The notes under the pieces were generated by a model. The model saw only the letters and a list, made by a program, of their open reading frames with translations, made no database searches and was not told the DNA's origin. A DNA stretch of 64,000 nucleotides from NCBI GenBank assembly GCA_021776655.1, contig JAJFFK010000009.1, positions 1 to 64,000 on the forward strand. Reading direction: 5' to 3'. The DNA comes from Henriciella sp. (GTDB taxonomy: Bacteria; Pseudomonadota; Alphaproteobacteria; Caulobacterales; Hyphomonadaceae). Position numbers and translations under genes: made by a program. This document shows, one piece after another, positions 10,729 to 43,699 of the stretch (the first letter of the stretch is position 1; each line of letters opens with the position of its first letter).

Positions 10729-10742
10729 AGTTGGGCGTTGGT

Positions 10743-13190: not shown

Positions 13191-13193
13191 ATC

Positions 13194-14444: not shown

Positions 14445-14456
14445 GAGGCGGACGCG

Positions 14457-14765
14457 ATGTTCCTGATCCACTGCCCATATTGCGACGAGGATCGTCCCGA
14501 GATCGAGTTCTCCTATGCCGGCGAAGCCCACATTGCCCGGCCGCAAAATGCCGACGCTATAAGTGATGCCGAATGGTCGGAATACTTATTCATTCGCGAG
14601 AACAAGCGCGGTATACATTGTGAGCGCTGGTGGCACACAAATGGCTGCAACCGGTTTTTCAATGCGGTGCGCAACACAGTCACCGACAAGTTCATTATGA
14701 CATATGAGATGGGGGAGCCCCGCCCGACGCCCGAAGAAATAGAGGCGGCGCGTGATGACGACTGA
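14457..14765 (+). CDS. soxD: Sarcosine oxidase delta subunit
   Basis: The 102-residue protein has the zinc site of SoxD: Cys6 and Cys9 (HCPYCDEDRPEIEF) with His60 and Cys64 (HCERWWHTNGCNRFF). It is the small zinc-binding subunit of the heterotetramer. A clear GGAGG precedes the ATG. It overlaps soxA by 11 bases. Confidence 0.95.
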   Translation: MFLIHCPYCDEDRPEIEFSYAGEAHIARPQNADAISDAEWSEYLFIRENKRGIHCERWWHTNGCNRFFNAVRNTVTDKFIMTYEMGEPRPTPEEIEAARDDD

Positions 14766-17718: not shown

Positions 17719-18262
17719 TCAGGGACTGGAAATTGGTGACACCTTGTCAGACGGCTGTTTGACTGTCCTACTTGTTAGTGAAAGGACGCGGTATTCCTTG
17801 CGAATCAAGGCCGAAGACCTGACGGCCTTTAACCTGGAAAGTGGCCTTGGATTGCCAGAACGAATTGGGCAATCATCACTTACGGAAGCTAGGATGCAGC
17901 TTTGTCTTGGCCCGGACGAATGGCTGATCGTGACACAGCCAGATCTGGATAAAGGCCTGGGCGCGCAACTGAAGCGACTATCGGACTCATTCATATTCAG
18001 CTTCACCGACATATCTCACCGTAATATTGCCCTGACAGTGCAAGGCTCAGAGGCTGTTGCGGCGATCAATATTGGCTGCCCGCTGGATCTGTCACCGGAA
18101 CATTTTCCGGTGGGCAAGGTTACACGAACTGTTTTTGAGAATGCCCCTATTATGCTACTTCGAACTGGTGAGGATGTGTTTCATCTCGAATGTTGGCGAT
18201 CTTACGGCCCGTATGTTACTGGTTTATTTGCCAGATATGCGAAAGACATAGAGATGAGCTGA
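17708..18262 (+). CDS. soxG: Sarcosine oxidase gamma subunit
   Basis: The 184-residue product is low in recognisable motifs, as expected of SoxG, but has LGPDEWLIV, FTDISHRNIALTVQG and DLSPEHFPVGKVTRTVF, which fit the family. Its position after soxA settles the call. The ATG at 17708 overlaps the soxA end; a longer in-frame start lies inside soxA and is unlikely. Confidence 0.9.
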   Translation: MLVDQGLEIGDTLSDGCLTVLLVSERTRYSLRIKAEDLTAFNLESGLGLPERIGQSSLTEARMQLCLGPDEWLIVTQPDLDKGLGAQLKRLSDSFIFSFTDISHRNIALTVQGSEAVAAINIGCPLDLSPEHFPVGKVTRTVFENAPIMLLRTGEDVFHLECWRSYGPYVTGLFARYAKDIEMS

Positions 18263-18311
18263 ATTGGCTAATCGCAAATTGGAATTAGCGCCAACTGGAG
18301 AAGATCAGGTT

Positions 18312-24825: not shown

Positions 24826-25632
24826 TCATCCCATACGCTTCACACCGCCAGTTTTGTCACGGGCATAGATGGTGATGTTGGCTTGTCTGGCCTTGTTCAG
24901 GGCCAGATTTGTAGGCGCCGACAAACAGAGAATTGCTAAGATACCGCGCCGTGCGGCCTTGTCGATTATTTCATACGAACACCGCGAGGACATCAGCAAA
25001 AACCCATCCGTACTCTTGATCTCTGCAAGCGCCATGGCCCCGATCAGCTTGTCGAGCGCATTGTGACGGCCAACATCCTCACGCACGAGATTGATCGTAC
25101 CGTCCGGATGCACCCAGGCAGCACCATGGACACTTTTGGTGCGTTGATTGATTGGCTGGAGACTAGCGAAATCTCGCATGGCCTGCTCAAGCGCGGCCTT
25201 CGAGATTTTTACTGGAACCTCAATGACTGGCGCCAGAGGTGCGAGAATGCTGTCAGCATTTTCCAACCCGCAAAGTCCGCACCCGGCGGTGCCGACAAGA
25301 TTACGTCGACGGGCCTGGACATCGAAACGGGCCAGCCGATCCGCGTCGATCTTGAAAAAAAGCTCTATACCATTTTCCGAATGATTGATTTCGAGATGCT
25401 CAATCTCGGCCGATGCGTTAATGACGCGCTCAGTCAGTGAAAACCCAAGCGCAAAATCCATCATGTCTGCGGGCGTAGCCAGCATGACAGCATAATTGCG
25501 CCGATTATAGACAAACGCGACTGGTGTTTCCTCCGGGACATGCCAGCGGCCATGATGCGGGGTGTCCAGAGAATCGACTTCGATGGTCTCAGAGGCAGGC
25601 GGTGGCTTGCCGATGATATCGACTGGGAACAT
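24826..25632 (-). CDS. fdhD: Formate dehydrogenase accessory sulfurtransferase FdhD (FdsC)
   Basis: The 268-residue protein has the FdhD signature GTAGCGLCG with Cys118 and Cys121, the pair that carries persulfide from the cysteine desulfurase to the molybdenum cofactor. Conserved segments REDVGRHNALDKLIG and SSRCSYEIIDKAARRGI are also present. The start at 25632 shares a base with the fdsA stop (TAATG), so the gene is coupled to fdsA. The open frame runs further upstream inside fdsA but is not needed. Confidence 0.95.
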   Translation of the reverse strand: MFPVDIIGKPPPASETIEVDSLDTPHHGRWHVPEETPVAFVYNRRNYAVMLATPADMMDFALGFSLTERVINASAEIEHLEINHSENGIELFFKIDADRLARFDVQARRRNLVGTAGCGLCGLENADSILAPLAPVIEVPVKISKAALEQAMRDFASLQPINQRTKSVHGAAWVHPDGTINLVREDVGRHNALDKLIGAMALAEIKSTDGFLLMSSRCSYEIIDKAARRGILAILCLSAPTNLALNKARQANITIYARDKTGGVKRMG

Positions 25633-28436: not shown

Positions 28437-28439
28437 GAT

Positions 28440-29981
28440 CTATCCCTCGAAGTCCTCTCGGAAATGGCGAATTGCACTTCGCACCGGCATGGGTGTCAGG
28501 CCGCCCATAGCGCATAATGAACCCTTTTCCATAAGCTCACAAATGTCATCGAGGATTATGAGATTATCATCGATATTTTCCCCGGCGATTATCTTGTCGA
28601 GTATCTCCTTGCCGCGCTGTGAACCAATCCGGCAGGGCGTGCATTTCCCGCAAGATTCAATCTCGCAGAATTTCATGGCAAAGCGGGCTTGCGCTGCCAT
28701 GTTGACGTCCTTGGAAAAGATGACGAGCCCACCGTGGCCGAGCATGGCGTCAGCCTCTGACATTTTCTCGTAATCCATCTCCATGTCGAACTCACTTGCT
28801 GGAACATAGGCACCGAGTGGGCCGCCAGCCTGCACGGTACGTATGGCTTTGCCGGAGTGGGTACCGCCACCGAAACCCTCAACCAGTTCGCGCATGGTCA
28901 CGCCGAACGCTTTCTCGACGAGGCCACCACAGGCAATATCGCCGCCAAGCTGGAAGGCTTGTGTGCCTAATGAACGCCCTTGGCCATAATTCTTGTAGAA
29001 ACCTGCGCCTTTGCTCATGATGATCGGCACGCTGGCGAGGGTGAGGACATTGTTGATAATGGTCGGCTGGCCGAACAGGCCCTCTATTGCCGGGATTGGC
29101 GGCTTGACCTTGATCTGCCCGCGTTTGCCTTCAAGGCTTTCCAGCATCGAGGTTTCCTCGCCGCAAATATAGGCACCGGCACCCTTGCGGACATGAATGT
29201 CAAAAGCCTGCCCGGAGCCATCAATATCAGGCCCAAGCAGCCCAGTCTCCTGCCAGATATCAATCGCGCGGCGCATCGTAGCAATGGCAAGTGGGTATTC
29301 AGAGCGGATATAGATGTAGCCGACCGTTGCCCCCACTGCGAGACCAGCAATGACCATCCCTTCGAGCAGGCAGAACGGGTCGCCCTCCATCAAGATACGA
29401 TCGGCAAATGTCCCGCTGTCGCCTTCGTCGGCATTGGCGCAGATATATTTTTGGTCGGCCTCCTGGGCGAGTGCGGTCTGCCACTTTATTCCGGTCGGAA
29501 AGCCAGCGCCGCCGCGACCGCGCAGACCGGATTCGGTGACGGTTTCAACGATGGCCTGAGGTGTCGATGCCAGCGCTTTTCGCAGTCCGGCAAGTCCGCC
29601 ATGCGCCTCGTAATCTGTGAGGCTGAGCGGATCAGTGAGCCCGCAACGGGCGAATGTCAGTCGCTCTTGGCGTGCGAAATAAGGGATGTCCTCGGTGGGG
29701 CCATGGGCCAGGGTATGGGCTCTGCCATCAAGGAAACCAGCTTCGAACAGATCCTCCACATCGTCAGGCGTGACCGGACCATAGGCCATCCGGCCCTTCG
29801 GCGTTTCAACTTCGATCAATGGCTCGAGCCACAACATGCCGCGCGTACCATTGCGGATAATCGTTACGTCAGTGTCCCCGCACCCTGCAATCCGTTCAAT
29901 CTCGTGCGCCACTTCATCAGCGCCAACCGAGCCGGCAGCAGCATCGCAAGGGACATATATCTTAACCGGGCGAGTGGTCAT
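28440..29981 (-). CDS. fdsB: NAD-dependent formate dehydrogenase beta subunit
   Basis: A 513-residue NuoF-like protein: an N-terminal thioredoxin-like domain, the FMN/NAD site (GLRGRGGAGFPTGIKWQTA near 152-170, ICANADEGDSGTFADRILME near 181), and a C-terminal [4Fe-4S] motif CGKCTPCRIGSQRG near residues 445-458. It passes electrons from FdsA and FdsG to NAD. It overlaps fdsG by four bases. Confidence 0.96.
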   Translation of the reverse strand: MTTRPVKIYVPCDAAAGSVGADEVAHEIERIAGCGDTDVTIIRNGTRGMLWLEPLIEVETPKGRMAYGPVTPDDVEDLFEAGFLDGRAHTLAHGPTEDIPYFARQERLTFARCGLTDPLSLTDYEAHGGLAGLRKALASTPQAIVETVTESGLRGRGGAGFPTGIKWQTALAQEADQKYICANADEGDSGTFADRILMEGDPFCLLEGMVIAGLAVGATVGYIYIRSEYPLAIATMRRAIDIWQETGLLGPDIDGSGQAFDIHVRKGAGAYICGEETSMLESLEGKRGQIKVKPPIPAIEGLFGQPTIINNVLTLASVPIIMSKGAGFYKNYGQGRSLGTQAFQLGGDIACGGLVEKAFGVTMRELVEGFGGGTHSGKAIRTVQAGGPLGAYVPASEFDMEMDYEKMSEADAMLGHGGLVIFSKDVNMAAQARFAMKFCEIESCGKCTPCRIGSQRGKEILDKIIAGENIDDNLIILDDICELMEKGSLCAMGGLTPMPVRSAIRHFREDFEG

Positions 29982-30421
29982 GTCTCGCCCCTTTGTTTGA
30001 GCAACTGATTGAACCGCTCGGCATCAACCCGGCCATACAGCTTGCCATCCATCATCACAGCCGGGCCAAGGGCGCAATTGCCGAGACAATATGCAGCAGT
30101 GATCTTGGTGTCGCATGTTTTGGCTGCGTGTGTTGCAAGACACTCTGCGCCAACGGCTTGGCAAGCCTCAGCCCTGCAGATCCTGATATCAGGCCCATCC
30201 AAGGGTACTAGCCGGAAGTCATGATAGAACGTGACAACACCATGAATGTCAGCGCGTGAAATATTTAGAGCATCGGCAATTTCAACCAGTGCCTCTTTGG
30301 CGAGGAAGCCAGCTTCATCTTGCACATCATGCAGGATTTCAATCAAGGCGTCTGGCCGGTTATCATAACCTGCACAGATCTGCCGTATACGGCTGTGGCT
30401 TGATTGTAAGACTGTGACCAT
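29978..30421 (-). CDS. fdsG: NAD-dependent formate dehydrogenase gamma subunit
   Basis: The 147-residue NuoE-like protein has a [2Fe-2S] site made of CRAEACQAVG and the later CLGNCALGPA, and the GVVTFYHDFRL segment of the family. It is first in the operon and lies 12 bases from a BetI-like operator, so formate oxidation appears to be switched with betaine demethylation. Confidence 0.95.
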   Translation of the reverse strand: MVTVLQSSHSRIRQICAGYDNRPDALIEILHDVQDEAGFLAKEALVEIADALNISRADIHGVVTFYHDFRLVPLDGPDIRICRAEACQAVGAECLATHAAKTCDTKITAAYCLGNCALGPAVMMDGKLYGRVDAERFNQLLKQRGET

Positions 30422-30516: not shown

Positions 30517-31155
30517 CTACAGCGGTGTTGTGTGGTTCATGAACGAGTGTCCATTGCCATTCGCTTCTGCTTTAAGCCTCGACAGGACACTTTCAAAGAT
30601 TTCAATATGTTCTTCCGGGAAAGCATTCTTGGTAATCTGCTTTTCAACCCACAAGCCGACGACCAAGGCTCGCAGCTCGATAGCACCTTGTCGTGCCTTG
30701 TCCCTTGGCAGCCCCAGAGTGCGTAAATCATAGGTGAAGTTTGAAATCATTCGCGCACCAAATATATGCATCAATCTGGCCGTACGTGGATCATTTGCCG
30801 CATGAGACCAGAGCTGAGGCCAGATATTTGCTGCCTCTTCAGAAAGATGTGTCGCACTGAAATGTGCATTGCAGGCACCCCATATGCGCTTGATTGGGTC
30901 AGCTTCGCCTTTGCGCGCTTCCAGCATGTCGAGGCGAATACTCTTGATTACAAAGACAAATGAATTGTAGACCAAATTGTCTTTCGTATCGAAGAAATAG
31001 TGGATTGCAGCGGTCGAAACCTGAGCACGTTCGCTGATTGATTTGGTTGTAAGATTGGAAATGCCATCTGTGGCCATGGCAGACAATGCGCTGTTGATGA
31101 TCGACTGGGACGTGTCGCTGGCGATGCGCTTCTTCTTGATTGTTTTCTGTTCCAA
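30517..31155 (-). CDS. BetI-like TetR family repressor
   Basis: The 212-residue regulator has an N-terminal TetR helix-turn-helix (TKSISERAQVSTAAIHYFFD, residues 38-57) and a C-terminal domain whose spacing and motifs (RQGAIELRALVVGLWVEKQI) resemble BetI. It begins with TTG, preceded by GAGG; no ATG occurs for 27 codons. BetI represses choline/betaine genes and is released by ligand. Here the gene lies immediately upstream of the fds operon, and it is the obvious candidate to bind the four palindromes at 10711, 24627, 30433 and 44741. Its ligand might be betaine or dimethylglycine. It is divergent from an MFS gene. Confidence 0.85.
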   Translation of the reverse strand: MEQKTIKKKRIASDTSQSIINSALSAMATDGISNLTTKSISERAQVSTAAIHYFFDTKDNLVYNSFVFVIKSIRLDMLEARKGEADPIKRIWGACNAHFSATHLSEEAANIWPQLWSHAANDPRTARLMHIFGARMISNFTYDLRTLGLPRDKARQGAIELRALVVGLWVEKQITKNAFPEEHIEIFESVLSRLKAEANGNGHSFMNHTTPL

Positions 31156-32888: not shown

Positions 32889-32907
32889 GCTCAGGACCTG
32901 AGCCTAG
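32885..32907. terminator. Palindrome at the 3' end of the glxA-type gene
   Basis: CTAGGCTCAGG and CCTGAGCCTAG form perfect 11-bp arms around one central base. The palindrome contains the TAG stop of the regulator gene on the minus strand and shares CTAG with the adjacent repeat element. It may act as a terminator or as part of the mobile element target. Confidence 0.5.
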
Positions 32908-33860
32908 CGATCAGCGCTGGGGCTGTGTCCAAATTGCCGGGTATAGACACGGGAAAAATGGGATGGTGAGGTAAACCCGGTGGTTACAGCAATTTGCAGC
33001 AGTGTCAGATTGGTTTGCTTGATCAGATGGTTGGCTCGCTGCAAGCGTAATTCCATATAATATCGCGCCGGTGTCGTGTTCAGATGCCGTTTGAACAGGC
33101 GCTCCATTTGTCTGAGTGACAGCCCAACTGTCCCGGCTAATGAATGCATCGGAATGAGCGTTTCGGTGTGAGCTTCCATGTAACCTATCGCGGCCAGAAG
33201 CTTGGCATGCGTAATATCGGTGCGACGCGCCATGGAAGGTTGGTGTATTCGCTTTTGTTCGCGGTCAAACCCATGCAGCATCTGGTCAGAAACCTTGTCA
33301 GCGAGTTCCTTACCATGATCGAGTGTAATTGAGTGGACCATCATATCAAGCGGCGCCGTACCGCCCGAGCAAGTGTAACGATTACGATCAATCTCAAATA
33401 CAGTTGCCGTAATGTCGAGCTCGGGAAAGTTCTCGACAAATCCTTCCATATATTCCCAGTGGATCGTGCAGCGATAGCCATCAAGCAATCCAGCTTCGGC
33501 GAGCGCTATTGAGCCAGTGCATACACTTCCCAGGGCGAGCCCGCGCCGGGCCAGGACACGCAAATGCCCGGCCGTTTTCGAGTCAAGATACTTTAACGGA
33601 CGCAAGCCCGCACAGACAAACAATACGTCCACATCCAATTCACCACTCAAGGCAGTGTCTGGCGTGATTGCTACACCATTGCTTGCTGTCACGGTACTGC
33701 CATCTGAACTATATGTGCTCCAGGAATATAGCTCCCGACCAGCCATTCGGTTTGCGGCGCGCAAGGGCTCAATCGATGCGGTGAAAGCCATCATGGAGAA
33801 ATTCGGTATCAGCAGGAAACCGATGGATTGCAGCGTGTGTTCGGGTGACTTTCCAAACAT
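32904..33860 (-). CDS. GlxA-type AraC family regulator (GbdR-like)
   Basis: The 318-residue protein has a DJ-1/PfpI-like N-terminal domain (about 12-180, including VDVLFVCAGLRPL and LALGSVCTGSIALAEAGLL) and two C-terminal AraC helix-turn-helix motifs (SLAGTVGLSLRQMERLFKRH, then LLQIAVTTGFTSPSHFSRVY). This architecture is shared with GbdR and CdhR, activators responding to betaine/dimethylglycine and carnitine in Pseudomonas. Next to the corrinoid betaine operon, an activator of that operon is likely. It follows the DUF1289 gene with no gap. Confidence 0.85.
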   Translation of the reverse strand: MFGKSPEHTLQSIGFLLIPNFSMMAFTASIEPLRAANRMAGRELYSWSTYSSDGSTVTASNGVAITPDTALSGELDVDVLFVCAGLRPLKYLDSKTAGHLRVLARRGLALGSVCTGSIALAEAGLLDGYRCTIHWEYMEGFVENFPELDITATVFEIDRNRYTCSGGTAPLDMMVHSITLDHGKELADKVSDQMLHGFDREQKRIHQPSMARRTDITHAKLLAAIGYMEAHTETLIPMHSLAGTVGLSLRQMERLFKRHLNTTPARYYMELRLQRANHLIKQTNLTLLQIAVTTGFTSPSHFSRVYTRQFGHSPSADR

Positions 33861-34118
33861 TTATGAATTAGCTGATCTTTTGCCGCGCTTGGTGATCCTG
33901 CGCAGTTTGCGACGTTCGGCTAATTTAATGTCCAATGGTGGCATTCGGGCCGGTAGTTCTGAAAGTATTCTGTCACGATCCGTTTTTGATCGTAATGGCC
34001 AATTGGCGATCTCTTCGGGCGTGCGGCCACAACCAAGGCACATATTGCTGCCCTTATCGATATAACAAACCAACTGACACGGGCTGTCTACAGATTCTGG
34101 AATGTCATCAGTGTTCAT
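33861..34118 (-). CDS. DUF1289 small Cys-motif protein
   Basis: From the ATG at 34118 the protein has 85 residues with the DUF1289 signature SPCQLVCYIDKGSNMCLGCGRTPEEIANW, four cysteines likely binding a metal or Fe-S centre. The frame is open to 34241, but the family is normally 60-90 residues. Function unknown. Its stop abuts the start of the GlxA-type regulator, so the two form an operon divergent from fhs. The 34118-34295 gap holds the promoters; no palindrome of the ACTGAACAGT type is visible there. Confidence 0.75.
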   Translation of the reverse strand: MNTDDIPESVDSPCQLVCYIDKGSNMCLGCGRTPEEIANWPLRSKTDRDRILSELPARMPPLDIKLAERRKLRRITKRGKRSANS

Positions 34119-34294
34119 AAAGCGGCTCGTGTCTTGCCTAGCATCAAATCCAGACTCTAACGCTATCTCGATATTATTTACATTATATGCCGAAAATAGA
34201 CTTTCGATGTCGTTTTTGGAACAATGAATTTCGATTTTCAAATATAATTTGCGCTCACATATGTTGCAGAGGACGGTTCGCGCCGTATGTTTTC

Positions 34295-35995
34295 ATGGCT
34301 TTAGATAACTTAGATACACTGGGCATGCCGGACATCGAGATTGCCCGCGCGGCCAAAATGCAGCGTTTATTGCCGCTGGCAGAAGAGAAGCTCGGTATTC
34401 CGAGCGATGCCCTGGTGCCGTATGGCCATTTCAAAGCCAAGCTGACTTTCGACTATATAAACAGCATTCAATCAAACACTGACGGCAAGCTGGTTCTTGT
34501 CACTGCTGTTACACCCACGCCGGCAGGTGAGGGAAAGACCACCACGAGTGTTGGCCTCAATGATGGCCTCAACAAGATTGGCGTTAAATCGATGGTTTGC
34601 CTGCGTGAACCGTCGCTCGGCCCATGTTTCGGTATGAAGGGTGGAGCGGCAGGAGGCGGGCGGGCCCAAGTCCTGCCGATGGAAGATATCAATCTTCATT
34701 TCAATGGCGATTTCCATGCCATCACGTCTGCGCACAGTCTGATCTCTGCCATGATCGACAATCACCTTCAGTGGGGCAATGAGCTTGATATCGATCCGCG
34801 CCGGATTACCTGGCGCCGGGTTGTCGACATGAATGACCGCGCGTTACGGAATATCACCATTGGTCTTGGCGGAGCGACACAAGGCGTCCCGCGTGAGGAT
34901 GGCTTTGATATCACGGTTGCTTCGGAACTGATGGCGATCTTCTGCCTCGCAACCGATCTCAAAGATCTGCAAGCGCGCGTTGGCAATATTATTATTGGCA
35001 AGACGTACGCACGCAAACCCGTCACAGTCCGGGATATAGGCGCTGATGGCGCGGTAACGGTTTTGTTGAAAGATGCGATTCAGCCGAACCTGGTGCAATC
35101 GATCGAGCATAATCTGGCCTTCATCCATGGTGGGCCTTTCGCGAATATTGCGCATGGCTGCAATAGTGTTGTTGCAACAAAGACCGCTTTGAAGCTGGCC
35201 GATGTTGTTGTGACTGAGGCCGGGTTTGGCGCTGATCTCGGGGCCGAGAAGTTCCTCGACATCAAATGTCGTCAATCCGGCCTGCGACCGGATGCGCTTG
35301 TGCTCGTGTGCACCATTCGCGCCATGAAGATGCAAGGCGGGGTCGCCAAGGCTGATCTTCGGGCTGAGAATGTCGAGGCGGTGACAGAGGGATGTATCAA
35401 TCTGCGCCGCCATATTCAGAATATGCGCGAGTTTGGCCTTGAGCCTATCGTTGCCGTCAATCATTTCATCCATGACACGGACGCCGAGATTGAGATTGTT
35501 CGCGAAGTCTGCGCTGATGAGGGCATCGTCATGGCCGTTGCGAGGCACTGGGCCGAAGGCGGCGCTGGAGCGGTCGAGCTTGCTGAAGCTGTGAAGGCGC
35601 AATTGGACGCGGGCAGTGCCGAGATCAAACTGATCTATCCTGATGATGCGTCCTTAGAGCAGAAGATCGAAGCTGTCGCGACCAAGATCTACGGCGCTGA
35701 AAGCATTGTATTGTCGGCAGAGGCGGCACGTTCTCTGCGCGAGATCGAGAAAATAGGCTTTGGCCATTTGCCTGTATGTATCGCCAAAACCCAGAATAGC
35801 TTCTCGACCGATCCGAAAAAACTTGGCGCACCCAGCGGCCATGTCGTTGAGGTTCGCGAGGCAACGCTTTGCGCCGGAGCTGGTTTCGTCGTCGCAATTT
35901 GTGGTGCGATCATGCGGATGCCCGGCTTGCCGCGCCACCCCGCAGCGCTCGATATCGAGCTGGATGAAGATGGCCTGATTGTCGGCCTGGCTTAA
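34295..35995 (+). CDS. fhs: Formate-tetrahydrofolate ligase
   Basis: The 566-residue protein from the ATG at 34295 has the Fhs P-loop [16 protein letters not shown] and [18 protein letters not shown], followed by the usual [15 protein letters not shown]. The enzyme interconverts formate, ATP and THF with 10-formyl-THF. As first gene of the corrinoid operon in an organism that also has formate dehydrogenase here, it probably runs in reverse, conserving ATP while releasing formate from methyl groups. An earlier in-frame start would overlap the promoter region and lacks a ribosome site. Confidence 0.95.
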
Positions 35996-36006
35996 GGAGT
36001 AGACAG

Positions 36007-36696
36007 ATGAGTGATTCCGAAGACGACATCATCCTGAAGGACTTGAACGATGCCGACCTTGTCGCACAAATGCATGACGATCTCTACGATGGCATGGCTG
36101 ATGAGGTGAAGGAGGGTACGCAAATCCTGCTCGGCCGGGGCTGGGATGCCAATAACGTACTTGCCGAGGCGCTGGTCGAGGGTATGCGTATTGTCGGCAT
36201 AGATTTTCGCGATGGCATCCTGTTTGTGCCAGAGGTGCTCCAATGTGCCGGCGCAATGAAAGGCGGGATGGAATTGCTCCGCCCGATCCTGGCTGAAAGT
36301 GAGAATGCCGCCAGCACCGGCAAATACGTTATCGGTACAGTGAAGGGCGATATCCATGATATCGGCAAAAATCTCGTTGGCATGATGCTGGAAGGCGCGG
36401 GCTTTGAAGTCATCGATTTGGGCATCAACAATCCGGTTGAGAACTATCTTGAAGCGATCGACAAACACCAGCCGAGTATTCTCGGCATGTCGGCGCTGCT
36501 GACGACAACTATGCCATATATGGGCGTGGTCATTGAGGAACTGGACAAGCGCGGCATTCTGAAAGAGCTGCCTGTGATGGTTGGCGGCGCGCCGCTCAAT
36601 CAGGAATTTGCCGACGCGATCAACGCCCACACCTATGGCCGTGACGCCGCAATGAGCGCCGAGCTAGCCAAGACAATTGTCGGCAAGAACCGGTAG
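36007..36696 (+). CDS. Corrinoid protein of a methyltransferase system (MtgC/MttC-like)
   Basis: The 229-residue protein has the helical cap (residues 1-100, EGTQILLGRGWDANNVLAEA and GIDFRDGILFVPEVL) and the B12-binding Rossmann domain with GDIHDIGKNL, where His117 is the cobalt ligand of the DxHxxG motif, then SALLTTTM and VGGAPLN. It would carry the methyl group between the MttB-type methyltransferase and the pterin methyltransferase. A strong AAGGAG precedes the ATG, 11 bases after fhs. Confidence 0.95.
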   Translation: MSDSEDDIILKDLNDADLVAQMHDDLYDGMADEVKEGTQILLGRGWDANNVLAEALVEGMRIVGIDFRDGILFVPEVLQCAGAMKGGMELLRPILAESENAASTGKYVIGTVKGDIHDIGKNLVGMMLEGAGFEVIDLGINNPVENYLEAIDKHQPSILGMSALLTTTMPYMGVVIEELDKRGILKELPVMVGGAPLNQEFADAINAHTYGRDAAMSAELAKTIVGKNR

Positions 36697-36704
36697 GCAA
36701 GATC

Positions 36705-37331
36705 ATGCACAGCTCAACGCAGAAAACGCTCATCATCGCCTGCGGGGCTCTGGCCAAAGAAATTCTGGCTGTGAAAGAGGCAATGGCTTTGACGGATGGG
36801 GTCTTTGATCTGAAATGTCTTCCGGCTGGCTATCACAATTATCCAAACAAAATCGTTCCCGGTCTTGAGAAAATCATAAACGAGAATGGCGATAATTATG
36901 ACCGTATTCTCATCGGTTACGGGGATTGCGGGACGGGCGGCGGGTTGGATCGGATGATGGAGAAATATCCCAAGACAGAGCGCCTGCCGGGCGCGCATTG
37001 CTACGCCTTTTATGCGGGGCTTCCCGAATTCGACGCGATGATGGAAGAAGAACTCGGGAGTTTTTTCCTGACCGATTATCTGGTGCGACATTTCGAAACG
37101 CTCATCGTCAAAGGCTTCGGTATTGACCGCTATCCCAATCTGAAAGCGATTTATTTCGAGCATTACAAACGGCTTGTTTATATTTCACAAGCGCCCAGTG
37201 ATGAGCTCATCGCAGAAGCGAGAAAAGCGGCTGATTTTCTTGGATTGGCATTTGAACATCGACCTGTGGGGTATGGCGAACTGGCGTCCTACATTGCCCA
37301 GCTTGCACCAAAAGAGACTGCGGATGTATAG
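36705..37331 (+). CDS. DUF1638 protein of corrinoid methyltransferase clusters
   Basis: The 208-residue protein matches DUF1638: IIACGALAKEILAVKEAM, LPAGYHNYPNKI, GYGDCGTGGGLD and GAHCYAFYAGL. The conserved Cys and His residues suggest a metal or corrinoid-related site. DUF1638 genes recur beside MttB-type methyltransferases, and no biochemical function is established to my knowledge. Its place between the corrinoid protein and MetV supports an accessory role in methyl transfer, for example cofactor loading. Confidence 0.8.
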   Translation: MHSSTQKTLIIACGALAKEILAVKEAMALTDGVFDLKCLPAGYHNYPNKIVPGLEKIINENGDNYDRILIGYGDCGTGGGLDRMMEKYPKTERLPGAHCYAFYAGLPEFDAMMEEELGSFFLTDYLVRHFETLIVKGFGIDRYPNLKAIYFEHYKRLVYISQAPSDELIAEARKAADFLGLAFEHRPVGYGELASYIAQLAPKETADV

Positions 37332-37821
37332 CGTTCGCCAATGGTCCGTGAAGCGGTCGAGATTTCTCGAAGGCGTCTACAATTTTACGAACCCCGGCAT
37401 CCTTTTTTGCTTGAGAGGCATCACCAGACTGTTTGGTAAATCTCTGGACCGTCCGATTACGGCGCTTGAAGCTGGGCTCAAGGGCTTCCTGTTCGATTGC
37501 CAGATGTGCGGTGACTGCGTCTTGTCAAAAACGGGTATGAGTTGCCCGATGAATTGTCCCAAGACAATTCGCAACGGACCGTGCGGAGGCGTTCGTGAAA
37601 ACGGTATGTGCGAGGTGAAACCTGAAATGCGTTGCGTTTGGGTTGCGGCATGGGATGGTGCATCGCGAATGAAAGACGGCGAGGTAATCAGGGAGGCCCA
37701 ATTTGCTCTGGATTATCGACAAAAGGGTAAATCAAGCTGGTTGAGACTGGCCCGCGAAACGGGTGATGTCGAGAAAACTGATGCGCCAGAAACAGAGCTT
37801 TCTGAGCGAGGTCCAGCATGA
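37324..37821 (+). CDS. metV: MetV-type methylene-THF reductase partner (Cys-rich MTHFR C-terminal domain)
   Basis: The 165-residue protein from the ATG at 37324 (overlapping DUF1638) has eight clustered cysteines at 59, 62, 65, 74, 78, 87, 96 and 104 (DCQMCGDCVLSKTGMSCPMN and NGPCGGVRENGMCEV). This is the MTHFR_C domain (PF12225) found as MetV in acetogens, where it binds iron-sulfur clusters and pairs with MetF. Here it overlaps metF by four bases. The pair would oxidise methyl-THF to methylene-THF. A longer start within DUF1638 is unlikely. Confidence 0.85.
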   Translation: MYSVRQWSVKRSRFLEGVYNFTNPGILFCLRGITRLFGKSLDRPITALEAGLKGFLFDCQMCGDCVLSKTGMSCPMNCPKTIRNGPCGGVRENGMCEVKPEMRCVWVAAWDGASRMKDGEVIREAQFALDYRQKGKSSWLRLARETGDVEKTDAPETELSERGPA

Positions 37822-38891
37822 ATATCATGAGTCCGGACATTGAAATTGTTGGCACTAATCCCGGTGATCCGCTCCCTCAACTTGAGGGCCATGTTTCTTA
37901 TGGCCGGTTCGAGCGCGTGTTGCGAGCCGGACATTTTGCAATCACGTCTGAGATTGCGCCACCGGATTCAGCCGATCCAGACGAAATCATGCGCCGCGCC
38001 AATGTGTTCGACGGCAGTGTTGATGCAGTTAATGCCACGGACGGTTCTGGTGCTAATTGTCATCTCTCCAGCATGGGCATGTGTGCGGTCATGACAAGAA
38101 ACGGCCTGTCACCGATTATCCAGATATCGTGCCGTGATCGCAACCGGATCGCCATTCAAGGCGATATCTTGGGCGCGGCGGCGATGGGCGTGTGCAATGT
38201 CCTGTGCCTGAGCGGAGACGATGTCAGTGTCGGCGATCACCCCGAAGCCAAACCCGTTTTTGATCTCGATAGCGTGTCCTTGATCAGAACCATCAAAATG
38301 ATGCGTGACGAAAGACACTTTCTGAGCGGACGGAAACTGGCTAGCGGCCCGAACCTGTTCATCGGATCATCAATAAACCCGTTCGCGCCGCCAATTGAAA
38401 ACAGGGTGGATCAGCTTGCGAAAAAGATAAATGCCGGAGCTGAGTTCATACAAAGCCAGTATTGCTTCGATATAGCGATGTTGAATGATTTCATGGCGCA
38501 GGCCGTTGATGCGGGACTTGCCGAGCGTGCTTTTATCCTGATCGGCACCGGCACGCTGGCCTCCGCGGGAACTGCTAGATGGTTACGCAGCAACATCCCC
38601 GGTGTGCATATTCCCGACGCAATCATTGAGCGGCTGGACCAGGCAGAAGATCCCAGGGCCGAGGGCCGGAAAATCTGTGTGGAACTAATGCAGCAGATCA
38701 AGGAAGTTGCTGGTGTCAGCGGCATCCACCTGATGGCGTACCGGCAAGAAAAATTTGTGAACGCAATTGTTCAGCAATCCGGCGTGCTGGGGGACCGTAA
38801 ACCCTGGAGTGCTGATGATTACGACTTTCATCGTAGAAAACTGGATTCAGAAAAATCCGCGCAAACAACAGCGGCAAGGACAGATTTATGA
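37818..38891 (+). CDS. metF: Methylenetetrahydrofolate reductase-like protein
   Basis: The 357-residue barrel has FAITSEIAPPDSADPDEIMR at the N-terminal strand, NVLCLSGDDVSVGDHPEAKP for flavin/folate binding and AGAEFIQSQYCFDIAMLNDF, all typical of MetF. It is longer than biosynthetic MetF and is coupled to metV by ATGA, so a catabolic role taking methyl-THF to methylene-THF is inferred. The electron acceptor may be reached through MetV. It overlaps the next gene by four bases. Confidence 0.9.
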   Translation: MNIMSPDIEIVGTNPGDPLPQLEGHVSYGRFERVLRAGHFAITSEIAPPDSADPDEIMRRANVFDGSVDAVNATDGSGANCHLSSMGMCAVMTRNGLSPIIQISCRDRNRIAIQGDILGAAAMGVCNVLCLSGDDVSVGDHPEAKPVFDLDSVSLIRTIKMMRDERHFLSGRKLASGPNLFIGSSINPFAPPIENRVDQLAKKINAGAEFIQSQYCFDIAMLNDFMAQAVDAGLAERAFILIGTGTLASAGTARWLRSNIPGVHIPDAIIERLDQAEDPRAEGRKICVELMQQIKEVAGVSGIHLMAYRQEKFVNAIVQQSGVLGDRKPWSADDYDFHRRKLDSEKSAQTTAARTDL

Positions 38892-39793
38892 CAAAAACCA
38901 TTATTGGTTCAGCGACCAAAGAGCTGGCAATAGGATTTGACCGACCTTTTGTGATGATTGGTGAGCGGATCAATCCGACCGGCCGCAAGATGTTCTCGGC
39001 CGAACTCAGGGACCGCAACTATTGGCGTGTGAAGAAAGAAGCACTGGCTCAGGTTGAGGCAGGCGCGCAGATGCTGGACGTGAATGTCGGCGTGCCTCTG
39101 GCTGATGAGCCGGGGATCATGGCCGAAGTTGTGCCACTGATTCAGAGCATCACTGATGTGCCGCTCTGCATTGATAGTTCGATTATCGAGGCGCTTGAAG
39201 CAGGGCTGTCAGTCTATAAGGGCCGCGCACTTGTCAACTCCACCACGGCCGAAGAAGAAGTCATGGATCGAGTGCTGCCACTGGTCAAAAAATATGATGC
39301 GGCGGTTGTTGCTATTTCGAATGATGAGACAGGGATATCGCAGGATCCGGATGTTAGATTTGAAGTCGCCAAACGTATTGTCGAGCGCGCCCATGATTAC
39401 GGCATAAAGTCTGAGGACATTCTTGTCGATCCGCTCGTCATGCCGATTGGTGCGATCAATAGTGCTGGCAAGGATGTTTTCCACCTGATTGGGCGTTTGC
39501 GCAATGAACTTAAAGTCAATACGACTTGCGGCGCGTCGAATGTCGCATTTGGGTTGCCCAACCGCCATGCAGTTAACAATGCTTTCCTGCCAATGCTGGC
39601 TGGCGCAGGGATGACTTCGGCGATTGTAAACCCGTTGCATGACGGGCTTGTGCAGGCCGTTAGAGCTGGCGATGTCCTGAATGGTCTTGACCCTGCTTGC
39701 GCCAATTGGATCAAAGCTTACCGGCCACCACCAGCTGAAGGCGAAGAAGGTACCAGGGGTAGAGGAGGGCGCCGTGGCCGACGAGGAGGTTAA
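38888..39793 (+). CDS. Methylcorrinoid:THF methyltransferase (MtgA/AcsE-like)
   Basis: The 301-residue protein is a pterin-binding TIM barrel: FVMIGERINPTGRKMFSAEL, GAQMLDVNVGVPLADEP, PLCIDSSIIEALEAGL, LVNSTTAEEE and VNTTCGASNVAFGLPNRHAV. It is like the methyl-THF:corrinoid methyltransferases AcsE and MtgA. In a betaine-consuming direction it would move methyl from the corrinoid protein to THF. The C-terminal about 20 residues are Gly/Arg/Glu-rich (GRGGRRGRRGG end), outside the barrel; basic tails recur in two other proteins of the operon. Confidence 0.92.
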   Translation: MTKTIIGSATKELAIGFDRPFVMIGERINPTGRKMFSAELRDRNYWRVKKEALAQVEAGAQMLDVNVGVPLADEPGIMAEVVPLIQSITDVPLCIDSSIIEALEAGLSVYKGRALVNSTTAEEEVMDRVLPLVKKYDAAVVAISNDETGISQDPDVRFEVAKRIVERAHDYGIKSEDILVDPLVMPIGAINSAGKDVFHLIGRLRNELKVNTTCGASNVAFGLPNRHAVNNAFLPMLAGAGMTSAIVNPLHDGLVQAVRAGDVLNGLDPACANWIKAYRPPPAEGEEGTRGRGGRRGRRGG

Positions 39794-40196
39794 AACCTAT
39801 ACCGGCCATTGTTTATGCCGAGAGGTCAATTTCATTGCCAGGGGCTTGAGCGATATCTGGTATTGTCACTGCACTCAGTGTCAGCACATGACGGGCCATT
39901 GTGTCGCGGCGGCAGGTGCCCGGCGCGCTGACTTTTCTTATGAGGGGAATGTGCGCTGGTCGCCAGTTTCAGCTGGCACAAGATCTGGGCATTGTGCCAG
40001 CTGCTCAAGCTATTTGTTCTGGGATCAAATTGACCGTGCAACGATTAGTATACTGGCTGGTAATCTAGACGATACAGCAGGCCTCGTACTTAAAGGCCAT
40101 ATTTTTGTTGCCGAGAAGAAAGACTATTTCGAGATTAGTGATGGCCTGCCTCAATATGAGAAATGGCCGCCCGAAGGGACACGGCAAGAGGGTTGA
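39774..40196 (+). CDS. GFA-family (Mss4-like) zinc protein
   Basis: From a GTG at 39774, preceded by a strong GGAGG, the protein has 140 residues and overlaps the methyltransferase gene by 20 bases. Cysteines in GHCLCREVNF, CHCTQCQHMTGHC and GHCASCSSYLFW form the zinc sites of the GFA fold. The family is named for a glutathione-formaldehyde activity that is disputed. In a pathway that can release formaldehyde, a formaldehyde-related role is attractive but unproved. Confidence 0.8.
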   Translation: MADEEVKTYTGHCLCREVNFIARGLSDIWYCHCTQCQHMTGHCVAAAGARRADFSYEGNVRWSPVSAGTRSGHCASCSSYLFWDQIDRATISILAGNLDDTAGLVLKGHIFVAEKKDYFEISDGLPQYEKWPPEGTRQEG

Positions 40197-40209
40197 CTGA
40201 AAGCATATT

Positions 40210-42150
40210 GTGACAAGCCATACGATCATCTTCACGCCATCCGGTGTACGCGCAATCGCCGAAAACAGCGAGAATGTGTTTGAGGTGGCACTGCGCGCGG
40301 GTGTCGATATCAGTTCGATCTGCGGCGGCAAAGGCTTGTGCAAACGCTGCCAGATCGAAGTCGAGCCGGGCACACACGCCAAGTTCAATATTGAGGTCAA
40401 GGCTAGCAGTCTCTCGAAACTCACGCCGACTGAGAAAAAGGCTCGCCATGATGGGGAACTGGCTGAAAACCGTCGGCTGTCCTGCCGCGCCAAAGTTCTT
40501 GGCGATCTGGTCGTTGAAATCCCTGCCGATGCGCGCGAGCATGAAAGCAGTATCAAGAAGACGAGCACTGAAATCGACACTGAACTGAACCCGGGGGTCA
40601 AGCTCTACATGGTCAAGCTTGATGTCCCGACCTTTGCGGACAATCCAAGTGATGGCGGCGCACTGACGGAGGCATTGCAGGCATTTGGCGTCACGGCAAA
40701 GCCTAATTTGAAAGCTTTGGTGAAAATCCAGAATATTCTGAAAGCAAATGACCGCACGGCGATTGCAGTGGTTCGCGATGCCACCGAAATCATTGATGTC
40801 TGGCCGCCCAACCCATTCAATCTCTATGGTGCGGCAATTGACATCGGCTCAACCTCGGTTGCGATTTATGTCTTTGATCTGACAGATGGCGGGCTGGTCT
40901 ATGAGCAGGCCGCCATGAACCCGCAGATACGCTATGGCGAAGACCTGATGAGCCGTGTCTCCTATGTCATGCTCAACAAGGAGGGTGACAAAAAGCTCAC
41001 TGCGGAAATCCGCAAACAGATCAAAACTATGTTGGCTGATGCAAATGAGGCGTTGGGTCTTGAGCCGAACCAGTTGCTTGAAGTGACACTGGTTGGCAAT
41101 CCGATAATGCATCATCTGTTCATTGGTGCTGACCCAACTGAGCTGGGGCAGGCACCTTTCACTCTGACGACGAAAGACTGGCTCGATATTCCGGCCCACC
41201 TGCTTGACCTTGGTCTCTCCGATGTCGCGCGTATATCGCTTTTGCCGCTGATTGGCGGGCATGTTGGTGCCGATACAACGGGCGCGTACCTGACGCAGTA
41301 TGATACCATGCAGGGGCGTTCGGTCCTGCTTGTCGATATCGGCACCAATGCCGAGATTGTACTCAGCCATAATGACCGGGTTGCAGCGTGTTCCTCACCA
41401 ACAGGGCCAGCGTTCGAGGGCGCTGAAATCAGTTCTGGTGTGCGGGCAAGCCACGGCGCGATCGAACGTGTACGGATTGACCCAGAGACGAAAGAGCCGC
41501 GTTTTAAAATCATCGGTCATGATGACTGGCTCAGCGATACAGCTGCTGATATTTCTGAGCATATGATCACCGGGATTTGCGGCTCGGGAATATTCGAAGT
41601 CATGGTTGAGCTTGCCAGTGCGGGACTTGTCGATGCCAGTGGTCTCTTCATTCCAGATGCCGCGCCGCATCGCTTTGAGGTTGATGGCAAGGGTTGGAAA
41701 TATGTCCTCCTGCGCCGCGAGACGAAAACGATCTATATCAAGCAGACGGACGTTCGCGCCGTGCAGCTTGCCAAGGCTGCGCTGAGTGCGGGCGTCAGTT
41801 TGTTGAAGGAATATCTCGATTGTGATGCCTTGGAGGAGGTCTTGCTCGCAGGCGCATTCGGCACGCATCTCGACAGTAAATATGTCGCCGGTATTGGCAT
41901 TGTCGCTGGCGCACCGGCCGAGATTATCTCCTCGATCGGCAATGCGGCGGGAATGGGCGCGGCGATGGCTTTGCTCAATGTCGATGAAAAGGCGAGGATC
42001 ATTGAAGCTGTGAAGTCGATCGAGAAACTGGAAACGGCAGTTGAACCAAAGTTTCAGGATTATTTCGTCGCAGCGATGACATTCCCGACCGCACCGGAAG
42101 TATCGACACAATCGAAAAGAGGGCGCCGGCGTAAACGGCGCGAAACTTAA
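40210..42150 (+). CDS. RACo-type reductive activator of corrinoid protein (ASKHA, DUF4445)
   Basis: The 646-residue protein starts with a [2Fe-2S] ferredoxin domain (Cys38, 44, 47 in SICGGKGLCKRC and Cys92), then an RACo linker and an ASKHA ATPase domain (GAAIDIGSTSVAIYVFDL near 208 and VLLVDIGTNAEIVLSH near 375; GICGSGIFEVMVELA and VLLAGAFGTHLD later). Such proteins use ATP to reduce accidentally oxidised Co(II) corrinoid to Co(I). That is important in an aerobic host. GTG start at 40210. The C-terminus SKRGRRRKRRET is strongly basic. Confidence 0.92.
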   Translation: MTSHTIIFTPSGVRAIAENSENVFEVALRAGVDISSICGGKGLCKRCQIEVEPGTHAKFNIEVKASSLSKLTPTEKKARHDGELAENRRLSCRAKVLGDLVVEIPADAREHESSIKKTSTEIDTELNPGVKLYMVKLDVPTFADNPSDGGALTEALQAFGVTAKPNLKALVKIQNILKANDRTAIAVVRDATEIIDVWPPNPFNLYGAAIDIGSTSVAIYVFDLTDGGLVYEQAAMNPQIRYGEDLMSRVSYVMLNKEGDKKLTAEIRKQIKTMLADANEALGLEPNQLLEVTLVGNPIMHHLFIGADPTELGQAPFTLTTKDWLDIPAHLLDLGLSDVARISLLPLIGGHVGADTTGAYLTQYDTMQGRSVLLVDIGTNAEIVLSHNDRVAACSSPTGPAFEGAEISSGVRASHGAIERVRIDPETKEPRFKIIGHDDWLSDTAADISEHMITGICGSGIFEVMVELASAGLVDASGLFIPDAAPHRFEVDGKGWKYVLLRRETKTIYIKQTDVRAVQLAKAALSAGVSLLKEYLDCDALEEVLLAGAFGTHLDSKYVAGIGIVAGAPAEIISSIGNAAGMGAAMALLNVDEKARIIEAVKSIEKLETAVEPKFQDYFVAAMTFPTAPEVSTQSKRGRRRKRRET

Positions 42151-42163
42151 TAAGGAAAAAGCA

Positions 42164-43699
42164 ATGGCACGACGTACAAGAGGAGGTGGCCGGGCCGGCA
42201 GGCAGGCTGCAGCTGAAGCAGATACACCAACACGAGCGCCCTATATCAAGCGCAAGATTCCAGTCTATTCCGTGCTTGGAGATACGGATCTGGCGCAGCT
42301 TGAGCAGAACGCAGACACGATCCTTGAAGAGATCGGCATCGACATAAAGGAAGATCAGGAAAGTATCGATCTGTTTGTCGCGGCAGGTGCCTCTGCTGAT
42401 GGTGAGCGTGTACGTTTTCCGCGCGGTATGTGCCGCGAGATTATCCAGAAATCTGCGCCGGCCATTTTCACGCAACATGCCAGGAACCCGGAGAACAATG
42501 TCGTCATTGGTGGTGACAATCTGGTCCTAGTTCCGGCCTATGGCTCGCCCTTTGTCTACTCGCGAGAAGGTGGCCGACGCTACGCGACGATTGAGGATTT
42601 CCGTAATTTTGTGAAGCTCGCCTATGCCTCGCCGCACTTGCACCATTCAGGTGGCACGGTCTGTGAGCCTGTCGACCTGCCCGTCAACAAACGCCATTTC
42701 GACATGGTCTATTCGCATATCAAATATTCCGACCGGGCGTTCATGGGCTCGGTGACGGCACCGGAGCGCGCACTCGATACGGTCGATATGGCCAAAATTG
42801 TTTTCGGTGATGACTTTGTTGAAGAAAACTGCGTTCTGGTCAGCCTGATCAATGCCAACTCGCCGATGACCTTCGATAGCGTGATGTTGGGGGCACTGAA
42901 GACTTATGCCCGGCACAATCAAGCCGTCATGGTCAGCCCGTTCATTGTTGCTGGCGCGATGTCGCCGGTGACCGCCGCTGCAGTTGCCGCGCAAAGCCTG
43001 GCCGAAGGCATGGTCGGCATGGCACTGGCGCAATTGATACGTCCCGGCGCACCTGTGATCTATGGCAACTTTGTCAGCTCGATGTCGATGCAGTCTGGCG
43101 CGCCGACATTTGGTACGCCTGAAGCGTCCCTTATCATCAATATAGGCGCTGCACTGGCCCGGCGCCTTGGCGTGCCATTCCGTAGCGCTGGTGGGTTCAA
43201 TTCTTCGAAATTACCGGATGCTCAGGCAGCGTATGAAGCGGCAAATACTCTACAACACGGCCTGTTGGCTGGCGTCAATTTCATGCTCCACACAGCAGGT
43301 TGGCTCGAGGGCGGTCTCGCCATGGGGTATGAGAAATTTGTCATGGACACCGATCAGGCAGGTATGCTGGCCATCTATGCTCAGGGCGTCGATATGAGCG
43401 AAAATGGGCAGGCTCTGACGGCGATGGCAGAAGTCGGCCCTGGCAAACATTTCCTTGGCTGCGAACATACTCAGAAGAATTTCAAGTCGGCATTTTTTCC
43501 ATCAAACATTGCCGATAATAACAGTTATGAACAATGGATCGAGGATGGCTCGCTCGATGCTGAAGCCCGGGCCGAGAAAATCTATAAGGAGATGCTGGCG
43601 AGCTACACGCCGCCGGAACTGGACCCGGGCATTGATGCACGCCTGATCAAATTTATGGATGACAAGAAGGCCAGTTTTGCTGACAGTAATATCAGCTGA
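42164..43699 (+). CDS. MttB/MtgB-like quaternary amine methyltransferase, non-pyrrolysine
   Basis: The 511-residue protein belongs to the trimethylamine methyltransferase superfamily: ADTILEEIGIDIKEDQES, the segment PHLHHSGGTVCEPVDLPVNK, and GAPVIYGNFVSSMSMQSGAP. The frame has no internal TAG, so it is the pyrrolysine-free kind whose studied member MtgB of Desulfitobacterium demethylates glycine betaine. With DMGDH, sarcosine oxidase and a BCCT carrier nearby, glycine betaine to dimethylglycine is the most likely reaction; carnitine or proline betaine are alternatives. The N-terminus MARRTRGGGRAGRQ is Arg/Gly-rich. AAGGAAA precedes the start. Confidence 0.9.
   Translation: MARRTRGGGRAGRQAAAEADTPTRAPYIKRKIPVYSVLGDTDLAQLEQNADTILEEIGIDIKEDQESIDLFVAAGASADGERVRFPRGMCREIIQKSAPAIFTQHARNPENNVVIGGDNLVLVPAYGSPFVYSREGGRRYATIEDFRNFVKLAYASPHLHHSGGTVCEPVDLPVNKRHFDMVYSHIKYSDRAFMGSVTAPERALDTVDMAKIVFGDDFVEENCVLVSLINANSPMTFDSVMLGALKTYARHNQAVMVSPFIVAGAMSPVTAAAVAAQSLAEGMVGMALAQLIRPGAPVIYGNFVSSMSMQSGAPTFGTPEASLIINIGAALARRLGVPFRSAGGFNSSKLPDAQAAYEAANTLQHGLLAGVNFMLHTAGWLEGGLAMGYEKFVMDTDQAGMLAIYAQGVDMSENGQALTAMAEVGPGKHFLGCEHTQKNFKSAFFPSNIADNNSYEQWIEDGSLDAEARAEKIYKEMLASYTPPELDPGIDARLIKFMDDKKASFADSNIS

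Follow-up and report, generated by a model that had tools for sequence, protein, structure and literature searches.

Arginine- and glycine-rich ends on the likely partners of a corrinoid protein in a probable aerobic glycine betaine demethylase operon of Henriciella sp.

The window analysed here is a 64,000-nucleotide stretch of a Henriciella sp. genome (contig JAJFFK010000009.1, positions 1 to 64,000; 52.65% GC), in which nine plus-strand genes occupy positions 34295 to 43699 in the order fhs, mtgC, DUF1638, metV, metF, mtgD, GFA, ramA, mtgB. We read this run, with a probability of about 0.8, as an aerobic MtgBCD-type glycine betaine demethylase operon with reactivation and C1-oxidation genes, whose client enzymes carry arginine- and glycine-rich (Arg/Gly-rich) tails that would steer them to the corrinoid protein MtgC. 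The operon type itself is not new, being a known B12-dependent system. The tails form a strong pattern across related loci and, judging from sequence, are most likely docking tags for MtgC as an acidic hub, a reading that has its exceptions.

None of the nine genes contains an internal stop, and neighbours are either separated by gaps of 8 to 13 bases or overlap by 4 to 20. The first-pass annotation had named the same nine genes in a single plus-strand run; order, frames and family matches all agree with it, and its coordinates were right overall, save that we moved the starts of metV and the GFA gene. The run opens with fhs (34295 to 35995, with an alternative in-frame ATG at 34187), encoding a formate-tetrahydrofolate (THF) ligase (PF01268, 865.9 bits; NF010030, 892.5 bits against a cut-off of 652). 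It is followed by mtgC (36007 to 36696) for a stand-alone corrinoid protein with PF02607, PF02310 and GDIHDIG, by the gene of the DUF1638 protein (36705 to 37331; PF07796, 100.9 bits), and by metV (37324 to 37821; PF12225, 90.6 bits) for the small, 165-aa partner subunit of MetF. MetV had no sequence match in the PDB; its start, chosen from relatives, lies most likely at 37324, so that the gene overlaps DUF1638. A metF paralog putatively serving methyl-THF oxidation (37818 to 38891; PF02219, 107.4 bits) precedes mtgD (38888 to 39793), the corrinoid:THF methyltransferase gene (PF00809; NF005719, 355 bits against a cut-off of 259). For the GFA-family gene (39774 to 40196; PF04828, 49 bits), GTG 39774 is the most likely start, which makes the gene overlap mtgD. 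Next comes ramA (40210 to 42150) for an ATP-dependent corrinoid reductive activator, with PF14574, PF17651, PF17650 and Fer2, which aligns along the RACo-type structure 3zyy.

The run closes with mtgB (42164 to 43699; PF06253, 714 bits), encoding a glycine betaine:corrinoid methyltransferase of the non-pyrrolysine MttB family. Its 511 codons include no in-frame pyrrolysine TAG or other internal stop, which, together with a score of 248.6 bits on TIGR02369 (cut-off 525), rules out the pyrrolysine-type trimethylamine methyltransferase MttB. The closest solved relative of MtgB is PDB 4yyc (673.6 bits), presumably of Sinorhizobium origin. MtgB also scores 455 bits against the glycine betaine methyltransferase 9yce, which we take to be the Desulfitobacterium hafniense enzyme and for which no relatives were found in viral contigs. 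The operon thus holds the features of an aerobic MtgBCD demethylase, namely MtgB, a stand-alone MtgC, MtgD, a second MetF, a RamA-like activator and DUF1638.

In the window, Arg/Gly-rich or Arg-rich ends read directly from the sequence sit at the C-termini of MtgD (39749 to 39790) and RamA (42112 to 42147) and, by Arg count before the core, at the N-terminus of MtgB (42164 to 42208), while no other operon product ends in one. We scored C-terminal tails as at least five Arg in the last 15 residues in two locus sets: the best 80 of 283 MtgB relatives (29 of these 80 loci being shorter than 15 kb), and 79 stretches from 77 genomes that were chosen for DUF1638, none of them from the window's own genome. 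Over both sets, filtered by alignment, a tail was present in 87/96 MtgD and 85/94 RamA proteins, compared with MtgC 0/115, DUF1638 0/122, MetV 0/60, Fhs 0/25, MetF 1/69, GFA 0/35 and dimethylglycine dehydrogenase (DMGDH) 0/25. Left out of these counts were 3 of 99 MtgD and 2 of 96 RamA matches that end more than 45 residues short of the query end. The two sets agree. The first gave tails in 49/51 MtgD and 42/50 RamA proteins and in none of 43 MtgC, 44 DUF1638, 38 MetV, 40 MetF, 33 GFA and 18 Fhs proteins; the second gave 37/44 for MtgD, 44/46 for RamA and 10/10 for homocysteine methyltransferases sharing a stretch with mtgC, set against 0/72 for MtgC, 0/79 for DUF1638, 0/23 for MetV and 1/29 for MetF. 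Most proteins scoring low still end in a related way: of the seven MtgD with fewer than four Arg, six do have an Arg/Gly stretch, with a further tail coming after it, and one runs off its contig, and among the six such RamA proteins those of loci L027, L063 and L077 carry a basic block, while that of L172 belongs to a different module described below.

Two trivial origins of the tails were considered and rejected: they persist where no GFA gene follows mtgD and are hence no by-product of gene overlap, and their occurrence at the window's moderate GC content speaks against a high-GC artefact. Solved relatives end earlier. PDB entries of AcsE (262 aa) stop at residue 279 of the 301 in the window's MtgD and lack the extension, and 3zyy runs 11 residues beyond its match to RamA.

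Were the tails a mark of MtgC clients, MtgE, the homocysteine methyltransferase working with MtgC, would be expected to carry one, and other homocysteine methyltransferases to be untailed; this was the prediction we set. Among PF02574 proteins with a visible stop in 76 genomes, 12 of the 15 of MtgE type have at least five Arg (13 of 15 at least four), whereas all 44 that are not of MtgE type lack a tail. The 15 share four members with the ten from the second locus set, one of the four being the query itself; those ten had all been found with a MetH-half query, and the wider search used the protein of L003. In eight genomes selected because MtgE is untailed or MtgD and RamA lie elsewhere, MtgD has at least four Arg in 8/8 and at least five in 6/8, and RamA at least five in 7/8.

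MtgB carries its tag at the other end. Defined as at least five Arg in the 30 residues before the core, an Arg-rich N-terminus was found in 116/116 MtgB proteins (least 5 Arg, median 7), one of 117 matches having been left out for want of an N-terminal part. The same measure gave MtgC 0/113, DUF1638 0/121, MtgD 1/95, RamA 1/91, Fhs 1/25, GFA 1/36 and GlxA-type regulators 0/54; MetV scored 39/47, but from a too-early start; its N-terminus is basic and conserved without being rich in Gly. Arg counts at the N-terminus thus discriminate less well than those at the C-terminus, and MtgB is distinct in showing no exception at all; neither the C-terminal pattern nor the MtgE test depends on the N-terminal measure. 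9yce lacks the extension, its residue 3 matching residue 32 of the window's MtgB in the alignment. MttB-family proteins encoded on plasmids also begin Arg-rich in 9/9 stretches (9 of 40 listed matches; 195 records), from Phaeobacter, Ruegeria, Leisingera, Cereibacter, another Rhodobacteraceae strain, Mesorhizobium, two Sinorhizobium and Azoarcus; the most distant of them (25.7% identity) has the least clear Arg-rich start, and 8 of the 9 stretches (9 to 20 kb) yielded no mtgC match.

Modules built around another corrinoid protein offer a weak comparison. Genome G242 has, besides a tailed MtgC module, a second DUF1638 module whose RamA is without an Arg block and whose MtgD extends only a little past the core, with 4 Arg in its last 15 residues. 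Where modules of G107 and G164 use another corrinoid protein, their RamA is distant and carries no tail (clearly so in L301 and L303), whereas tails are present in the MtgC module of G164. As an observation in its own right, the second G242 module (L203 7558 to 14474, and L172) encodes URO-D methyltransferases, one of them fused to a corrinoid domain, next to its own corrinoid protein, RamA, DUF1638, MetV, MetF and MtgD.

What could read such tags? MtgC is the most acidic protein of the module for its length (median net charge −23, n = 114), and its N-terminal ~36 aa stand out (median net charge −13, n = 113); in the window this segment (36007 to 36114) has a net charge of −11 in 36 aa and contains DDLYDG. 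Across the 113 sequences D25, L26, Y27 and G29 are conserved at 95% or more, and position 24 is acidic in nearly all. The motif [DE]DLY[DN]G occurs in 110 of 115 MtgC-type matches, the other five being one cut sequence, two with DDLYEG and two corrinoid proteins of another type. A DDLY[DEN]G-type motif is present in MtgC of the tailed G164 module (L292) and was not found in the corrinoid proteins of L301 and L303. In the structural model of MtgC (mean predicted local distance difference test score, pLDDT, 83.2), residues 1 to 6 are of low confidence and residues 15 to 27 form a helix. We consider this acidic segment a candidate tag-binding site only.

DUF1638 itself has a confident AlphaFold model (mb06ec49693d8, pLDDT 89.6), for which a Foldseek search of the PDB gave nothing at E ≤ 0.001; the protein had no PDB sequence match either. 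C13, C38, H44, C75, H98 and C99 are invariant or nearly so, a set that looks like a metal or cofactor site. The tails might be read by DUF1638 as an adaptor between clients and MtgC, and its proximity to the module could be cited in favour, the second locus set having been drawn by DUF1638 itself. However, DUF1638 also occurs in the module whose RamA has no Arg block (L172) and is only mildly acidic (median net −6), and we regard this role as improbable.

Several observations weigh against docking to MtgC as the meaning of the tails. At least five Arg in the last 15 residues also occur in other open reading frames (ORFs), 11/590 in the first set and 36/819 in the second, although many of the 36 look wrong-frame, as judged by eye only. 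RamA of L153 and L290 is untailed and that of L032 has scattered basic residues only; MtgE of L251 and L254, both from small genomes, has 0 and 2 Arg, though MtgD there is tailed. At the N-terminus, SoxA (7/14), SoxB (4/18), DMGDH (3/29) and MetF (5/66) score as well, and MetV, which does not face MtgC, has at least five Arg in the first 30 residues from its likely start in 15/61. The modules without the MtgC motif are few (three genomes), their distant proteins differ beyond the tail, and even so the MtgD-like proteins of L172 and L301 contain 4 Arg among their final 15 residues. The idea that MtgC as a whole is specially acidic was rejected, its core (−7.9 per 100 aa) being like those of other corrinoid proteins (−5.0 to −9.3 in four solved ones). 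Lastly, sequences from one genus are not independent of each other.

Arg/Gly-rich ends bind polyanions in many proteins, and a few non-client proteins here have basic ends too. Binding of RNA or the nucleoid, binding of membrane lipids, or a general pathway condensate might therefore explain the tails in place of docking, an alternative that we take seriously while betting against it. It does not readily account for the restriction of C-terminal tails to enzymes facing MtgC, as other enzymes of the same pathway (MetV, MetF, Fhs and DMGDH, counted above) go all but untailed, nor for their absence from homocysteine methyltransferases that are not of MtgE type. Going beyond docking as such, we tentatively propose, at slightly less than even odds, a tag code in aerobic proteobacteria: the tags on MtgB and its paralogs, MtgD, MtgE and RamA would be read by the MtgC N-terminus, new substrates would be plugged in via tagged MttB paralogs, and Co(I) would be kept paired with a client under oxygen.

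The tail pattern appears to be undescribed, though the literature evidence for its novelty is weak. The main text of Mausz 2025 (PMC12478193) makes no mention of arginine, tail, docking or complex, and a literature search on arginine-rich ends with MttB, methionine synthase and corrinoid proteins gave nothing on point among the papers listed, with subscription papers mostly uncovered. The pattern suggests a simple, testable answer to how Co(I) is handled under oxygen and how one MtgC can serve MttB paralogs, an activator and two acceptors. It also provides a sequence marker for further MtgC clients, including MttB paralogs of unknown substrate.

In the pathway that we propose, MtgB would move a methyl group from glycine betaine onto Co(I) of MtgC, and MtgD would pass it on from MtgC to THF. 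RamA, with DUF1638, would rescue oxidised Co(II) at the cost of ATP. Methyl-THF would be oxidised by the dedicated MetV-MetF pair, Fhs would yield formate and ATP, and NADH would then come from the formate dehydrogenase encoded nearby. Dimethylglycine would be processed by the DMGDH-type enzyme and sarcosine oxidase, and methionine would be supplied separately by canonical MetH, unlike in Ruegeria. The tails would hold or steer MtgB, MtgD, RamA and, where it exists, MtgE to the acidic MtgC N-terminus, such that exposed Co(I) meets its partner before oxygen. Both glycine betaine as the likely substrate of MtgB in this organism and the direction of flux, from methyl-THF to formate, are predictions from gene content.

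Much of this chemistry has a published counterpart. Mausz 2025 describes it in Ruegeria, and Price 2018 (PMC5764234) ties RamA-like and DUF1638 proteins to the same system in Phaeobacter, in line with the caution of the first-pass annotation that the module may not be new. That annotation had also called the substrate and energetics little characterised, which no longer holds for the aerobic version: Ruegeria pomeroyi, an aerobe with MtgBCD, loses growth on glycine betaine when mtgC or mtgD is knocked out, and the mutants need methionine (PMC12478193). The same work partly answers why chemistry known mainly from anaerobes should occur in an aerobe. According to PMC12478193, Ruegeria MtgC and MtgD also make methionine, together with MtgE; several marine groups have colocated gene sets; a genome may hold up to seven MttB paralogs; mtgBCD also occurs in 28 of 239 metH genomes; and mtgC expression in the ocean often exceeds that of previously known betaine pathways. 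The chemistry hence matters, in our view, for methyl-group and nitrogen turnover. The statement in PMC12478193 that aerobic MtgC is distinct is in keeping with our mtgC product, whose top NCBIfam model is the glycine betaine corrinoid protein MtgC at 201 bits, under the cut-off of 370. In Phaeobacter, a split methionine synthase requires RamA-like and DUF1638 proteins (PMC5764234), and the MtgE homolog Bmt can also methylate homocysteine directly from betaine in vitro (PMC12366255, 2025).

Corrinoid-dependent demethylation of a quaternary amine, feeding THF and then formate, remains the best reading of the operon and is partly supported; the methionine role of MtgC and MtgD with MtgE had gone unmentioned in the first-pass annotation. 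Its suggestion of formate release with ATP gain is plausible, with fhs in the operon and formate dehydrogenase nearby. A difficulty is that no FolD-type gene, for the step from methylene-THF to formyl-THF, lies in the operon, the genome not having been searched for one. A further difficulty is that MtgB could act on another betaine. MttB paralogs do vary in substrate, as known from Eubacterium (PMC12478193), and proline betaine, carnitine, butyrobetaine or other methylated compounds might take the place of glycine betaine. We consider this unlikely: the genome has a single MttB gene, genes of DMGDH-type, sarcosine oxidase, BCCT, GbdR-like and BetI-like proteins lie within 34 kb, and MtgB matches 9yce as given above.

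Alternatively, the operon might be mainly a split methionine synthase, with betaine use secondary. In Ruegeria and Phaeobacter, methionine synthesis depends on MtgC and MtgD, and the set of MtgC, MtgD, RamA-like and DUF1638 proteins is identical to that in PMC5764234 and PMC12478193. Yet the genome has a canonical MetH, made of two pieces and including an activation domain (PF02574 and PF02965 proteins ~3 kb apart on contig C2), no MtgE ortholog was found in it, and mtgB, fhs, metV and the second metF fit oxidation. Methionine synthesis as the main role was rejected on the first two grounds, which also make the methionine role appear absent altogether; as an explanation of the operon we find it very improbable. 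Demethylation of glycine betaine is thus probably the only function here. The genome search bears this out in detail. Of two PF02574 matches, one is the canonical MetH half and the other scores 53 bits on the betaine-homocysteine methyltransferase (BHMT) model PRK07534 (cut-off 338), compared with 600 bits for MtgE from another genome; MtgE and BHMT both appear to be absent. MetE (PF01717) was not found in the genome. A second, higher-scoring MetF lies at C2:191826, ~1 kb upstream of metH, which makes the operon MetF the second copy.

Other routes for betaine were considered for this genome. The Rieske-type monooxygenase route, whose GbcA presumably bears PF00848, was rejected, there being zero PF00848 matches in the genome, and the BHMT route was rejected as the protein of L003 is not BHMT. 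With a single PF06253 gene in the whole genome, a separate MetH and no betaine-type Rieske enzyme found, the organism is a clean case for demethylation without a methionine role.

Compared with the systems of Ruegeria pomeroyi and Phaeobacter inhibens, MtgBCD(E), the operon shares MtgB, MtgC, MtgD, the second MetF, the RamA-like and DUF1638 proteins, an aerobic host, and the dimethylglycine and sarcosine steps (PMC12478193, PMC5764234). It differs in gathering all genes, plus fhs, metV and a GFA gene, into a single operon, and in the presence of canonical MetH with MtgE not found. Absence of MetH and MetE is typical of the split methionine synthase MtgCDE, albeit not strict. The MtgB/MtgC/MtgA system of Desulfitobacterium hafniense (PMC12478193) shares the MtgB family and the chemistry, the match to 9yce covering nearly the full core, but belongs to an anaerobe, and 9yce has no Arg/Gly-rich N-terminal extension. 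Closer in content is a Sinorhizobium-type cluster (L202, on a plasmid of Sinorhizobium sp. C101) with MtgB, MtgC, DUF1638, MetV, MetF, MtgD and RamA, the last reading as two ORFs, within 17 kb. It has Arg-rich ends on MtgB, RamA and an MtgE-like protein and an Arg/Gly stretch near the end of MtgD, and differs by that MtgE-like methyltransferase gene and by mtgB lying on the strand opposite to the other genes. With the RACo/AcsV and RamA activators, the window's RamA shares a ferredoxin domain, a linker, a middle domain and an ASKHA C-terminal domain; it scores under both NCBIfam cut-offs (AcsV, 330 against 800; RamA, 71 against 500) and has the extra Arg-rich C-terminus.

The gene run is beyond chance, since the eight-gene order mtgC-DUF1638-metV-metF-mtgD-GFA-ramA-mtgB recurs in 17 of the first 80 loci (with ramA split in L009), in alphaproteobacteria and Arenicella-type gammaproteobacteria, and 14 more match it as far as ramA except that they lack the GFA gene. 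The operon is in this sense an ordinary, well conserved member of the recently described system, among the genomes that keep MetH. Its spread is patchy: of 387 alphaproteobacterial genomes sampled, 78 have DUF1638, the window's own among them, and the counts for the remaining listed members of its family and its order are 0/2 and 0/3, respectively, which suggests that the module was gained by transfer or repeatedly lost. The GFA gene, between mtgD and ramA in the window, is present in 33/80 loci and perhaps serves formaldehyde handling. The GFA genes of some other genomes are found close to mtgB, along with fhs, or close to genes for DMGDH and Sox. We also note that the MetV-MetF pair (37324 to 38891), known from acetogens, is found here in an oxygen-using bacterium.

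The surroundings of the operon fit betaine use. A plus-strand operon for the DMGDH-type enzyme and sarcosine oxidase soxBDAG (10731 to 18262; PF01266 with PF01571, PF04267, PF17806, PF04268) is followed by a BCCT betaine/choline/carnitine transporter (18264 to 19955, plus strand; PF02028, 491 bits), whose top NCBIfam model is the glycine betaine BCCT at 418 bits, under the cut-off of 650. Sarcosine oxidase had been placed in the next operon; in fact this whole segment (10731 to 19955) lies ~14 kb upstream of fhs, with the formate dehydrogenase operon, regulators and other genes in between. The NAD-linked formate dehydrogenase operon (24829 to 30421, minus strand) encodes proteins of FdhD, FdsA, FdsB and FdsG types (TIGR01591, 883.6 bits against a cut-off of 666; PF02634, PF01512, PF01257). 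Also on the minus strand are a BetI-like TetR regulator (30517 to 31155; TIGR03384, 117 bits, under the cut-off of 201) and a GbdR-like regulator with DJ-1/PfpI and AraC domains (32904 to 33860; 346.9 bits to the GbdR model, under the cut-off of 480). The DUF1289 protein encoded upstream of the operon (33861 to 34241) belongs to a family that often has an Arg-rich C-terminus, with at least five Arg at the end in 4/5 proteins of the first locus set and 1/3 of the second. Elsewhere in the window, a polyphosphate kinase (2320 to 5241) carries a C-terminal PycTM domain of Pycsar effectors (PF18967, 5.7e-23), an odd fusion.

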